Source of the DNA: Bradyrhizobiaceae bacterium
GTDB taxonomy: Bacteria; Pseudomonadota; Alphaproteobacteria; Rhizobiales; Xanthobacteraceae
DNA length: 38,517 nucleotides
Reading direction: 5' to 3'
NCBI GenBank assembly: GCA_947479905.1
Contig: CANKBJ010000014.1
Coordinates: 1-38,517 of the forward strand
Part shown: piece by piece, positions 11,780 through 16,429 of the stretch
How the letters are laid out: each line of letters opens with the position of its first letter
Position numbering within the stretch: position 1 is the stretch's first letter
Position numbers and translations under genes: made by a program
Notes under the pieces: model-generated
What the model was told of the DNA's origin: nothing
Seen by the model: only the letters and a program-made list of their open reading frames with translations
Databases searched by the model: none

Positions 11780-12715
11780 ATGGCGAAGTCGCCCAAGGTC
11801 ATCATAACTTGCGCCGTAACCGGCTCGATTCACACGCCGTCAATGTCGCCGCATCTGCCGGTCACGGCCCAGGAGATCGCCGATGCCGCCATCGGCGCCG
11901 CCGAAGCCGGCGCTGCGATCGTCCATCTGCATGCCCGCAACCCGCAGGACGGCCGGCCCGACCAGACGCCGGAGGCCTTCCTTCCCTTTCTTAAGGTGAT
12001 CAAGCAGCGCTCGAACGTGGTGGTCAACCTCACCACCGGCGGGTCGCCGACCATGACCGTGGAAGAGCGCGTGAAGCCTGCCGCTTCGCTCAAGCCGGAA
12101 GTCGCGTCGCTCAATATGGGTACGATGAATTTCGGGCTCTACCCGATGATCCCGCGCTTCAAGGGCAAGTTCAAGCACGACTGGGAAGAGCCGTATCTCG
12201 AAGGTTCCCGCAAAGGCTTCTTCAAGAACACGCTCGCCGATATCGAATTCATTCTAACCACTTGCGCCGAGAACAACACCCGCTTCGAGGTCGAGTGCTA
12301 CGACATCGGCCATCTTTATACGTTGCGGCATTTCCTCGATCGCGGCCTGATCAAGGCGCCGGTCTTCGTGCAGTCGGTGTTCGGCCTTCTCGGCGGCATC
12401 GGCGCGCACCCCGAAGACGTCATCATGATGAAACGCACCGCTGACCGGCTGCTCGGCGATAATTATCACTGGTCGGTGCTTGGCGCCGGCGCCAACCAGA
12501 TGAAGGTCGCGGCCATCGCCGCGGCGATGGGTGGCAATGTCCGCGTCGGCCTGGAAGATTCGCTCTGGCTTGGCCCCGGCAAACTGGCCGAATCCAATGC
12601 CCAGCAGGTGACCAAGGTGCGTCAGATCCTCGAAGGCCTCGGCCTCGAGATCGCCAATCCGGACGAGGCGCGCGAAATCCTGTCGCTCAAGGGCGGCGAC
12701 AAGGTGAATTTCTAG
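11780..12715 (+). CDS. BKACE family protein (3-keto-5-aminohexanoate cleavage enzyme-like, DUF849)
   Basis: A 311-residue TIM-barrel Zn2+ enzyme of the beta-keto acid cleavage family, which condenses a beta-keto acid with acetyl-CoA and splits it to acetoacetate plus a CoA ester. The zinc pair is H49 and H51 in IVHLHARNP; further family blocks are NLTTGG, NMGTMNFG, FEVECYDIGHL and VFGLLGG. The N-terminus ITCAVTGSIHTPSMSP is that of one particular BKACE subgroup, whose substrate is not known to me. It follows the twin hairpins by 67 bp and precedes the GIY-YIG unit; no carnitine or lysine degradation genes are adjacent. Confidence 0.9.
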   Translation: MAKSPKVIITCAVTGSIHTPSMSPHLPVTAQEIADAAIGAAEAGAAIVHLHARNPQDGRPDQTPEAFLPFLKVIKQRSNVVVNLTTGGSPTMTVEERVKPAASLKPEVASLNMGTMNFGLYPMIPRFKGKFKHDWEEPYLEGSRKGFFKNTLADIEFILTTCAENNTRFEVECYDIGHLYTLRHFLDRGLIKAPVFVQSVFGLLGGIGAHPEDVIMMKRTADRLLGDNYHWSVLGAGANQMKVAAIAAAMGGNVRVGLEDSLWLGPGKLAESNAQQVTKVRQILEGLGLEIANPDEAREILSLKGGDKVNF

Positions 12716-12720
12716 ACTTT

Positions 12721-12768
12721 CGTCATTCCGGGACGCGGGCGCATGCCCGCGGGCCCGGAATCCAGGGG
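12721..12768. repeat. Left palindromic repeat flanking the GIY-YIG gene
   Basis: Begins CGTCATTCCGGG and ends CCCGGAATCCAGGGG. ATTCCGGG (12725-12732) pairs with CCCGGAAT (12754-12761), and CGCGGGC (12734-12740) pairs with GCCCGCG (12745-12751) around a GCAT loop. It lies directly after the BKACE stop codon and ends nine bases before the GIY-YIG start codon. It is the inverted counterpart of 13073-13122. Confidence 0.85.
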
Positions 12769-12777
12769 CCACGGACA

Positions 12778-13065
12778 ATGGCCTACTATGTGTATCTTCT
12801 CGCCAGTGATCGTAACGGAACGCTGTATGTCGGCGTGACGCGGGATCTGGTTCGCCGCATTTACGAACATAAGAACAAGTTGAAGCCGGGCTTTACCAAG
12901 CGCTACGACGTCCATCGGTTGGTTTGGTTCGAGGTTTACGACGATCCGACCAACGCCATTCTCCGCGAGAAGGAGATCAAGAAATGGCGGCGGGCTTGGA
13001 AATTGCGACTAATTGAAGAGTCGAACCCGCAATGGGTCGACCTTTATGATCAAATCAGTCAGTAA
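12778..13065 (+). CDS. Single-domain GIY-YIG nuclease family protein
   Basis: A 95-residue protein consisting only of a GIY-YIG domain of the UPF0213/SLX1-like type. The two signature strands are YYVYLLAS (residues 3-10) and LYVGVT (16-21); the helix TRDLVRRIYEHK carries the catalytic Arg, and Glu64 in LREKEIKKW is the expected metal ligand. No DNA-binding domain is fused to it, unlike homing endonucleases. Its start and stop codons lie nine and seven bases inside a pair of inverted palindromic repeats. From memory, proteins of this exact type occur in many copies per genome in Hyphomicrobiales. Activity is untested in most; the fold assignment is firm. Confidence 0.92.
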   Translation: MAYYVYLLASDRNGTLYVGVTRDLVRRIYEHKNKLKPGFTKRYDVHRLVWFEVYDDPTNAILREKEIKKWRRAWKLRLIEESNPQWVDLYDQISQ

Positions 13066-13072
13066 TTTATAG

Positions 13073-13122
13073 CCCCTGGATTCCGGGCTCGCCCGCCTTT
13101 CGGCGGGCGCCCCGGAATGACG
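13073..13122. repeat. Right palindromic repeat flanking the GIY-YIG gene (inverted copy)
   Basis: Begins CCCCTGGATTCCGGG and ends CCCGGAATGACG, the reverse complement of the left copy at both ends. ATTCCGGG (13080-13087) pairs with CCCGGAAT (13111-13118); GCCCGCC (13091-13097) pairs with GGCGGGC (13102-13108) around TTTC. The inner stem differs in sequence from the left copy but keeps its pairing. It ends eight bases before the antiporter start codon. Confidence 0.85.
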
Positions 13123-13130
13123 AGTTAGAT

Positions 13131-14909
13131 ATGGCCTCGCTCGACACCGTCAGTATTGCGATACTTCTAGGCAGTCTGCTGGTCATGGCCGGCATCCTTT
13201 CGAGCCTGGTCGCCTTGCGGTTCGGTGCGCCCTTGCTGCTGGTGTTCCTGCTCGTCGGCATGCTGGCCGGTGAGGGCGGCCCCGGCGGCGTCAAATTCGA
13301 CGATGTCGCCACCGCCTACACGGTCGGTTCCATCGCGCTGGCGCTGATCCTGTTTGACGGCGGTCTGCGCACGCGCTTTGCCAGCATTCGCAGCGTGGTC
13401 GCCCCGTCGGTGGTGCTGGCGACCGCCGGCGTCCTGATCACCACCTTGCTGACCGCGCCGGTGGCTAAATATGTCCTCGGCATCGGCTGGATCGAGGCCC
13501 TGCTGATGGGGGCGGTGGTCGCCTCGACCGACGCCGCGGCTGTGTTCCTGTTGATCAATGCCGGCGGTTTGCGCCTGCGGCCGCGCGTGCGCGGCACGCT
13601 GGAAGTCGAATCCGGCACCAACGATCCCTTCGCGGTGTTCCTTGCGCTGCTGCTGGTCGAGATTCTCGCCGTCGGTGGACAGAGCTGGTCGCAGGCCGCT
13701 GTAACACTGCTGCGCGACACGGTCCTCGGCGGCATTATCGGCTATGGCGGCGGGCGGATCATTACCCTGGTGCTCAACCGTGTGCCGCTGGCGCAGGGTC
13801 TTCACGCGCCCTTCGTCGCCATCAGTGCGCTGGTCGTCTTCGCGTTCGGCAACGCCGTGCATTCGTCGGGTTTCCTGGCCGTCTATCTCGCCGGCCTTAT
13901 TGTCGGCAACCGGCAAACCCGCGCGCACAATTCGGTGGTGGTGTTTCTCGACGCCATCACCTGGCTGGCGCAGATCGTGATGTTCGTGCTGCTCGGCCTG
14001 CTGGTCTGGCCCGAGCGGCTCGCGTCCAACTTACTGGGTTCCATCGCGGTGGCGCTGGTGCTGATGCTGGTGGCGCGGCCGGCGGCGGTTTTCCTGTGTC
14101 TGGCGCCGTTCACCTATTCCTGGCGCGAGAAATTGTTTATCTCCTGGGTGGGCTTGCGCGGCGCGGTGGCGATCTTCCTGGCGTCGATCCCTCTGATGGT
14201 CGGCTTGCCGGGCGCTCATCTTTACTTCGACGTCGCCTTCGTGGTCGTCCTGTCGTCGCTGTTGATCCAGGGCTGGACCGTGGCGCTGTCGGCTCGCAAG
14301 CTCGGCATGTCATTCGCGCGCAGCGATCCGCTGCCGCGGCGCGTCGAACTCGACCTGCCCGGCCAGTTGGCGCGCGAGATCGTCGGCTATCCGGTGTCGG
14401 CCAACAGCCCGTATTTGCGCCGCGGCCTCATCCCGAACTGGGCGCGGCCGACCCTGGTGATCCGCAAGGAAGAGATCATGACGCCGGCGGAAGCCGAGCC
14501 CGTGCGCGTCGGCGACTATGTCTATTTGCTGGCGCCGCCGGAAAAGGCGCAGGCGCTCGACCGCTTCTTCGTGAACATGCCGCCGCCGCGCGCGCCGGAG
14601 CCGGAACTGCTTGGCGACTTCTTCGTGCCCGGCACAGCGACGCTCGGCGCGCTCGCCGATATTTACGGGTTGCAGGTCGCCGCAGACCATGTCGAGGTGT
14701 CGTTGGCCGAATTGTTCACCGAAAAACTCGGCCGCGCCGCCAAGTCGGGCGACATCGTCCAGCTCGGGCCGATCGCACTGTTGGCGCACAAGGTCGAGAG
14801 CGGCCGCGTCGGCACGGTCGGCCTGCGGCTGGCCGAGGCGGAAGAGCAGTCGACAATGCCCGGTCGCGCCAGGGCGCTTTGGCGACGCCTGCAGAAGTGG
14901 ATCGGCTAA
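13131..14909 (+). CDS. nhaP2: Potassium/proton antiporter (CPA1, NhaP2/CvrA type)
   Basis: A 592-residue inner-membrane cation/proton antiporter. About 12 membrane segments occupy residues 1-390, with the ion-site motifs ASTDAAAVF and GTLEVESGTNDPFAV and the later WVGLRGAVAIFLA typical of CPA1 members. The C-terminus is cytosolic: a TrkA_C-like regulatory domain (about 400-490) and a CorC_HlyC-type transporter-associated domain (about 500-575), the arrangement of NhaP2/CvrA K+/H+ antiporters that protect from high internal K+ or nucleotide-linked stress. The start codon lies eight bases after the right palindrome of the GIY-YIG unit, so that unit sits where the native promoter should be. Confidence 0.9.
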   Translation: MASLDTVSIAILLGSLLVMAGILSSLVALRFGAPLLLVFLLVGMLAGEGGPGGVKFDDVATAYTVGSIALALILFDGGLRTRFASIRSVVAPSVVLATAGVLITTLLTAPVAKYVLGIGWIEALLMGAVVASTDAAAVFLLINAGGLRLRPRVRGTLEVESGTNDPFAVFLALLLVEILAVGGQSWSQAAVTLLRDTVLGGIIGYGGGRIITLVLNRVPLAQGLHAPFVAISALVVFAFGNAVHSSGFLAVYLAGLIVGNRQTRAHNSVVVFLDAITWLAQIVMFVLLGLLVWPERLASNLLGSIAVALVLMLVARPAAVFLCLAPFTYSWREKLFISWVGLRGAVAIFLASIPLMVGLPGAHLYFDVAFVVVLSSLLIQGWTVALSARKLGMSFARSDPLPRRVELDLPGQLAREIVGYPVSANSPYLRRGLIPNWARPTLVIRKEEIMTPAEAEPVRVGDYVYLLAPPEKAQALDRFFVNMPPPRAPEPELLGDFFVPGTATLGALADIYGLQVAADHVEVSLAELFTEKLGRAAKSGDIVQLGPIALLAHKVESGRVGTVGLRLAEAEEQSTMPGRARALWRRLQKWIG

Positions 14910-16338: not shown

Positions 16339-16345
16339 TTTTTTT

Positions 16346-16425
16346 CGTCCCCGCGAAGGCGGGGACCTATACGCCGTGTACTATCGAGAGGCTGCGGTGC
16401 ATGGGTCCCCGCCTTCGCGGGGACG
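16346..16425. repeat. Palindromic repeat pair (CGTCCCCGCG family), copy 1
   Basis: A perfect 22-bp inverted repeat, from CGTCCCCGCG at 16346-16367 to its complement at 16404-16425, with a 36-base spacer. Each arm is itself nearly palindromic (GTCCCCGC GAAG GCGGGGAC). It fills the gap between the BtuF-like gene and the modC stop codon at 16430. A related pair occurs at 26533-26655. Confidence 0.85.
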
Positions 16426-16429
16426 ACGA

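Follow-up and report, generated by a model that had tools for sequence, protein, structure and literature searches.

The RAYT-REPIN system (PMC3116915, Bertels and Rainey 2011) is the closest working model for the locus described here. In that system, as at our locus, the enzyme gene adjoins its own REP class, REPs occur as inverted pairs, and a genome can hold several classes, each with a protein lineage of its own. RAYTs are, however, HUH tyrosine transposases described there as single-copy entities, whereas the enzyme here is a GIY-YIG nuclease, with up to 10 matches per genome if weak ones are included, whose gene sits between its two REPs. CGTC REPs, surveyed in 2013 by Di Nocera, De Gregorio and Rocco (PMC3733652), were recorded in five phyla and mostly in alpha-proteobacteria; according to that survey they apparently lack a dedicated transposase, no tyrosine transposase gene is flanked by them, and the term GIY-YIG has a count of zero. 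By word search, nuclease, transposase and RAYT are absent from the main text of a 2025 REP survey (PMC12306157). Among the matches listed for open-licence PMC papers, none links GIY-YIG with REPs, REPINs or dRS3 in its title or the start of its abstract.

The Ssn proteins, small GIY-YIG nucleases present in Neisseria and in numerous other bacteria, reportedly cut cognate repeats as single-stranded DNA. The paper in question (Nature Communications, 2025) is said to describe an effect on transformation, to place its emphasis on single-strand cutting, and to report a cognate repeat in hundreds of copies and thousands of homologues with a sequence of their own; reportedly it makes no claim of mobile units, CGTC REPs or empty sites. 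Our nuclease is likewise a small GIY-YIG protein with a cognate repeat, and its family includes a gonococcal copy (L135), 58% identical to it and lying among ATTCCCGC hairpins, which is presumably an Ssn protein. Should this account hold, it is already known in principle that enzyme and repeat are paired, and what appears to be new here, as far as we have checked, is the link to CGTC REPs, the class-by-class match with the nuclease tree, the patchy sites, and dimers as the gene-less relatives of the unit.

The window, that is, the whole stretch of 38,517 nucleotides analysed, contains a compact unit that begins with a class A REP on the forward strand (12720..12769), made up of a CGTC tag (12721-12724), a hairpin (12725-12761) and a gene-facing CCAG tail (12762-12765). 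A GIY-YIG nuclease gene encoding 95 amino acids follows on the same strand (12778..13065), and the unit closes with an inverted class A REP on the reverse strand (13072..13123), whose tail, hairpin and GACG tag occupy 13076-13079, 13080-13118 and 13119-13122, respectively. Each hairpin has its unpaired CGTC tag on the outer side and its CCAG tail on the gene side. Both REPs are recognised from sequence, inverted arms and DNA fold, and the gene from its open reading frame, Pfam profile, alignments, structure model and dN/dS. The inverted arms match over 12720-12736/13107-13123 (17 nt, 94%) and 12749-12769/13072-13092 (21 nt, 95%), and the DNA folds reach -19.9 kcal/mol for the left hairpin (z -3.3) and -20.8 kcal/mol for the right (z -4.5), each more stable than 200 of 200 shuffles. 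The first-pass annotation had described a 95-residue GIY-YIG gene between inverted copies of one palindrome, with start and stop codons close to the repeats and with a BKACE and an antiporter gene on either side, and all of this is borne out. The reading frame matches PF01541 above the cut-off (E 3e-18), the start lies 8 nt past the left arm and the right arm 6 nt past the stop, and the neighbours, both on the forward strand, are a BKACE gene on the left (11780..12715; PF05853, E 2e-109) and, on the right, the gene of a Na/H exchanger with a CorC_HlyC domain (13131..14909; PF00999).

Within the window, CGTCATTCCGGG has its sole exact copies at 12721-12732 (forward) and 13111-13122 (reverse); allowing 2 mismatches gives 11 matches, which is chance level (11 was reached in 7 of 100 shuffles). 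In the host draft genome as a whole this 12-mer has 51 exact copies vs 0 in a reversed control, and other contigs of the draft contain dimers of the window palindrome with tags outward and short spacers. Outside the unit the window also holds a repeat of the same kind, a class C REP dimer (16345..16426) formed by CGTCCCCGCGAAGGCGGGGACC in inverted orientation with 18 nt between the arms; it is present though the only family match in the draft is the window's clade A gene, no clade C nuclease having been found there.

The two window REPs share with the CGTC REPs of the 2013 survey (PMC3733652) the unpaired outer CGTC tag, the AT that starts the stem, the CCA-type tail, the occurrence as inverted dimers and a distribution centred on alpha-proteobacteria with outliers in other phyla. 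They differ in that the survey gives a loop of 4-5 nt, whereas class A has an extra, variable inner hairpin: its outer stem is 8 bp, but it departs from the rule of an 8-9 bp stem with a 4-5 nt loop in that a self-pairing inner segment of 17-37 nt stands where the loop would be. Hairpin classes were defined by the analyst from the flanks, before tree construction, as A (ATTCCGGG, the inner stem being variable), B (a loop of GGGCTTG), C (a loop of GCGAAAGCG) and D (TCCCGGGCG); B and C, found at other copies, look nearer to the CGTC stem and loop rule. The hairpin type of clade B is GTCATGGCCGGG. Inverted REP dimers with spacers of 18-36 nt are common, and in 16 of them the spacers, all within that range, are all different.

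The observation made at first pass on the two window copies, that the inner stem differs while its pairing is kept, extends to the class as a whole. At least five pairs form in 59 of the 60 distinct inner segments of class A, vs 20 of 60 when shuffled. Among the 23 segments that are 18 nt long, six register pairs are paired in 96-100% of cases, with 2-4 pair types each; other registers show lower pairing except at two positions (96% and 70%). Because pairing is kept despite changes of letter, the shape of the hairpin appears to be maintained while its sequence varies. The conserved parts of the REP are the outer arms, tag and tail, and the variable parts the inner stem and spacer. Stable hairpins at both ends of a gene might also be its transcription signals, acting in termination or attenuation and unconnected with mobility, but we consider this very unlikely, given that tens of hairpins of the same class lie elsewhere, that the outer tag and tail are conserved though unpaired, and that neither window hairpin is trailed by a run of T.

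Bracketing was scored as the inverted repeat between the 170 bp upstream and the 230 bp downstream of a gene. We scored 91 family copies, 77 from the genus and order and 14 from a plasmid collection, after excluding weak matches (approximately 35-51% identity, E worse than about 1e-20) and fragments of fewer than 71 query residues; from the plasmid collection 15 of 33 matching records were taken, and the fifteenth, a broken copy (L145), was left uncounted. A score of at least 28 was reached by 81 of the 91 copies and a score of at least 36 by 69, whereas among 304 control genes, taken with a naive ORF caller from 400 kb of one genome (G018), the corresponding numbers are 6 and 2, one of these two lying between two GIY-YIG units. 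With this one relative as the control, palindromes flank the nuclease family far more often than they flank other genes (81/91 vs 6/304 at the lower threshold), in line with the association proposed at first pass. The tags mostly face outward: a crude orientation rule gave inward tags in 6 of the 81 bracketed copies and an ambiguous result in 20.

A wider set of named genomes yielded 580 confirmed loci, the best 80 of which were scored; close relatives are over-represented among these, and two loci (L226 and L227) apparently already figure in the 91. Scores of at least 28 were obtained for 58 of the 80 and of at least 36 for 44, with tags inward in 7 of the 58 and ambiguous in 13. The copies scoring below 28 thus number 10 of the 91 and 22 of the 80. 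By name of record, bracketed copies among these best 80 fall in six named phyla, namely Pseudomonadota (46 of 60), Myxococcota (2 of 3), Thermodesulfobacteriota (2 of 2) and Fidelibacterota, Omnitrophota and Doudnabacteriota (1 of 1 each), together with 5 of 6 unplaced records; the records from Calditrichota, Planctomycetota, Chloroflexota (two), Elusimicrobiota and Binatota scored below 28. The records from outside Pseudomonadota are mostly metagenome-assembled, so that a misplaced contig is possible for them.

Other GIY-YIG genes served as a second control. Of 23 such rows, one duplicate gene and one UvrC without downstream sequence were removed, and of the 21 distinct genes remaining 5 score at least 28 and 4 at least 36, a control that is not clean because some paralogues carry another family of repeats. 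A second, more distant GIY-YIG group of approximately 100-115 residues is bracketed by GTCATCCTGAGGTGCGAGC...GAGCCTCGAAGGATGAC in five of these 21 genes (L310, L311, L313, L315 and L316). That a distant group is bracketed by a repeat of its own suggests that the pairing of enzyme and repeat may extend past the clade studied here.

The hairpin class follows the nuclease lineage. On the GIY-YIG protein tree the four classes of 78 labelled copies require 5 changes, where the minimum possible is 3 and shuffled labels require a mean of 39.8, with none of 200 shuffles as low as 5. The remaining 13 of the 91 copies are unclassed and stand outside this count, and the 78 include a few without hairpins on both sides. 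The tree itself is a quick one built on 95 columns, in which 37 of 88 inner branches are without resolution, and the monophyly of clade A is strongly supported (98). In each of two genomes (G018 and G014), hairpins of types A, B, C and D all occur, each type with its own clade. Across ten genomes picked by flank type from the 80 loci, REPs of the ATTCCCGCG type number 38, 7, 25 and 20 in the four whose nuclease has a ATTCCCGCG flank, vs 0, 0, 2, 0, 0 and 0 in the six with a differently flanked nuclease. Sequence comparison thus strongly indicates a pairing of nuclease clade with hairpin class, which goes beyond the earlier proposal on nuclease and hairpins; a RAYT-like feature, an enzyme lineage paired with its own REP class, is found here in both the tree (5 vs 39.8 changes) and the ten-genome counts.

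This match bears on the suggestion that REPs simply collect at intergenic spots tolerant of insertion, the nuclease gene being there by chance. REP copies are abundant, and one such spot (L092) is taken by a class A dimer in G000 and by class B dimers in G055 and G005. Such a spot effect would not predict that hairpin class tracks the protein tree, and just 2 of the 304 control genes score at least 36; we regard this explanation as highly improbable.

Abundance of the repeats also goes with presence of the gene, though loosely. Among 43 genus genomes, with G044 excluded for its broken copy, the median number of class A REPs is 61 in the 12 that carry a clade A gene vs 15.5 in the 30 without a recognised one (one-sided Mann-Whitney p 2.7e-4, kinship ignored), clade A having been called by identity in part of the genomes and the flanks of three inspected. 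Three genomes without a recognised clade A gene are rich in class A REPs (G045 with 198, G052 with 117 and G053 with 102), and all three have other family members. G042 has 76 class A REPs and no family member was found in its assembly, which is 83% complete; this count speaks against a strict dependence of REPs on the nuclease. Over the eight genomes in which no family member was detected, class A REPs number 20-76 in four and 2 in one, and are absent from three, which indicates, as far as drafts tell, that REPs can outlive a resident nuclease or dispense with it.

A RAYT of the HUH type might in principle move these REPs, as in gamma-proteobacteria, with the nuclease as a passenger, and the dimer layout does resemble that of REPINs as described in PMC3116915. 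Matches to PF01797, the profile of Y1/RAYT-type transposases, were found in 1 of 24 genus genomes and in 6 of the 40 genomes searched, and none in the host draft; the CGTC survey (PMC3733652) likewise reports no tyrosine transposase gene flanked by these repeats. A RAYT as the mover is therefore disfavoured for this genus, and we find it scarcely credible.

How the units are distributed was followed through their outer flanks. In 20 genus genomes, 62 family copies fall into 31 neighbourhoods, the largest having 8, 5 and 5 members; neighbourhoods were drawn by single-linkage blastn of the outer flanks, a procedure that may merge or split sites. The gene is consequently not a syntenic single-copy gene. 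Some copies are inherited in place, five genomes sharing the BKACE site and five another site.

At the window site we compared the exchanger loci of 30 genomes, the window's own included, of which fifteen were uninformative because the BKACE gene was absent from the stretch compared. The nuclease adjoins the exchanger in six genomes (G000, G011, G014, G019, G023 and G043); in G011 the contig ends there and no left hairpin was found. A broken nuclease copy that retains the right hairpin lies at the BKACE site of G044 (contig C329, L117). In eight genomes BKACE and exchanger are separated by 70-213 bp and the nuclease is absent, although three of these sites are not bare: a lone class A-like REP lies in G053, part of a palindrome in G056, and repeats of other kinds in G017. 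On the exchanger tree, presence and absence of the nuclease require 6 changes, and well supported branches force no fewer than 3 of these. Carriers of the BKACE site have a common right junction and are without the intergenic stretch of the non-carriers. Because that stretch is missing, the difference is not a simple insertion, and together with the shared junction it makes common descent, accompanied by loss or by interspecies exchange, as likely an explanation as insertion on several occasions. Judged from sequence, the carriers look like products of common descent followed by loss or exchange between species, rather than of fresh insertion.

The gene-less dimers are polymorphic as well. Eight such dimers of G000 were compared with up to eight relatives, and every one of them is missing in one or more of the relatives in which the left flank aligned. 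The clearest case, on contig C23, has a clean empty site in six relatives, with neither dimer nor spacer there; G000 carries the 105-bp dimer with 15 and 4 extra bases, and no target duplication is evident (the flanks compared differ by 8-27%). Given these extra bases and the want of an evident duplication, no transposition signature was found. The notion that the spacer is host DNA that pre-existed at the site is unsupported, the spacer being absent from the clean empty site. Two dimers (L001 and L008) are common to other species, with similar spacers there. At a third position (L090) G007 has a dimer too, but the spacers of the two genomes differ (L090 vs L179), which counts against the favoured model.

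The first-pass annotation had proposed the unit as a candidate REP-type mobile element that its nuclease may spread or maintain. None of the three outcomes that it had named as refuting this view was obtained, and the view is partly supported. The part of this view that concerns mobility gains from the excess of bracketing, from the 31 neighbourhoods and from the empty sites that do exist in relatives, the BKACE/exchanger site being patchily empty and the gene-less dimers polymorphic; on these sequence comparisons, mobility of units and dimers is likely. The part that concerns the nuclease is less secure: since several copies are inherited in place and G042 is rich in REPs with no nuclease found, we treat nuclease-driven copying as an inference.

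Some further observations on sites were made. A family member lies between sufB and sufC, as annotated, in an Azospirillum record (L136, 2489-2782), and another, unannotated one apparently does so in Shinella (L146, 2501-2840), judged from neighbouring sequence; their hairpin types differ, which would possibly reflect repeated use of one spot. Adjacent pairs of family copies occur in G003 (L079; same direction, one copy broken) and in G018 (L047; opposite directions), and may stem from local duplication or from repeated insertion. In 25 kb of pSymB from six S. meliloti records we saw no REP-type insert by eye, and a pattern set up by the analyst for the Sinorhizobium repeat gave no match there. 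The same region (L304-L308 vs L303) shows non-REP inserts of 112 bp and about 180 bp that vary between approximately 99% identical strains.

In the nuclease, residues Y6, Y17, R27, H31, E64 and N83 are invariant in two alignments (29 and 25 sequences); we take them to be the Tyr, Tyr, Arg, His, Glu and Asn of the I-TevI catalytic set, which by alignment is intact in the window nuclease. For five same-site copies the ten pairwise dN/dS values are 0.05-0.21, with dS above 1 in five of the ten, and on these ratios the nuclease is under purifying selection. An AlphaFold2 model (pLDDT 93.6) has its best solved match by Foldseek in the UPF0213 entry PDB 1zg2 (E 1.4e-4), the single match with E of 0.001 or less, and Slx1 entries follow more weakly (E 0.014 and above). 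By profile and Foldseek the best solved relatives are UPF0213 proteins BH0048 and EF2693 (PDB 1zg2 and 1ywl), Slx1 and I-TevI, all of which have the GIY-YIG fold in common with the window nuclease; identity to the two UPF0213 proteins is low, at 26-28%. Slx1 cuts branched DNA, and by analogy such an activity would suit a hairpin substrate. A PADLOC search with the family returned two weak matches alone (E 0.014 and 0.021), and the four family matches in phage records were all weak. On a Planktothrix plasmid (L141, 1-5258) the neighbours of a family member are a gene for a type IIL restriction enzyme and drmA of a DISARM defence system, and TCATTCTGAG-type repeats surround it.

The explanation that we favour, and hold to be reasonably probable, is that the unit is a gene-bearing, REPIN-like element whose nuclease is the dedicated, sequence-specific partner of one REP class, cutting and host repair spreading both. 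Under this model the element would consist of a REP, the GIY-YIG gene and an inverted REP, and would exist alongside gene-less REP-spacer-REP dimers. A REP would become exposed as a hairpin of single-stranded DNA, as might occur on the lagging strand. The protein would identify it by its conserved arms, together with the CGTC tag and the CCA tail, and would cut at one of the latter two. Once the DNA is cut, repair or recombination by the host would copy or move unit and dimers, the inner stem being free to vary provided that pairing persists. Cutting, the hairpin as its substrate, and cutting as the driver of spread are all putative steps. GIY-YIG enzymes hydrolyse DNA, and to our knowledge have no strand-rejoining step, so that host repair has to be assumed.

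The foremost rival gives the nuclease a role with no mobility at all: it would recognise REPs and act on single-stranded DNA in uptake, repair or recombination control, as in the Ssn account, while the repeats owe their spread to something else or are retained because the enzyme uses them. The gonococcal relative among ATTCCCGC hairpins agrees with this, intact catalytic residues and purifying selection are in keeping with a useful enzyme, several copies have stayed where they are, and REPs are found in genomes with no detected gene. It leaves unexplained, however, why the gene is itself bracketed by inverted, mostly tag-outward REPs in many neighbourhoods, and why gene-less dimers of like layout are polymorphic. 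We consider it a serious reading, if an unlikely one.

Under the preferred model of a REPIN-like element with a dedicated nuclease, these sequence comparisons make the GIY-YIG nuclease the likely missing partner of CGTC REPs. A bolder version, which we put forward tentatively and to which we give somewhat less than even chances, is that of an independent second REP engine, in which GIY-YIG nucleases would mobilise CGTC REP dimers and their own gene as hairpin-ended elements across six phyla or more; each insertion would acquire a fresh spacer of roughly 20 nt, and cut-and-repair would do the job of HUH strand transfer. A family that tracks its repeats class by class gives the CGTC REPs, which the 2013 survey (PMC3733652) left without an enzyme, a testable candidate. 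If movement depends on the nuclease, a GIY-YIG enzyme without known strand joining would represent a new way of spreading DNA, and the pairs would, if the model is true, amount to an extensive natural collection of nucleases and hairpins with matching specificities.
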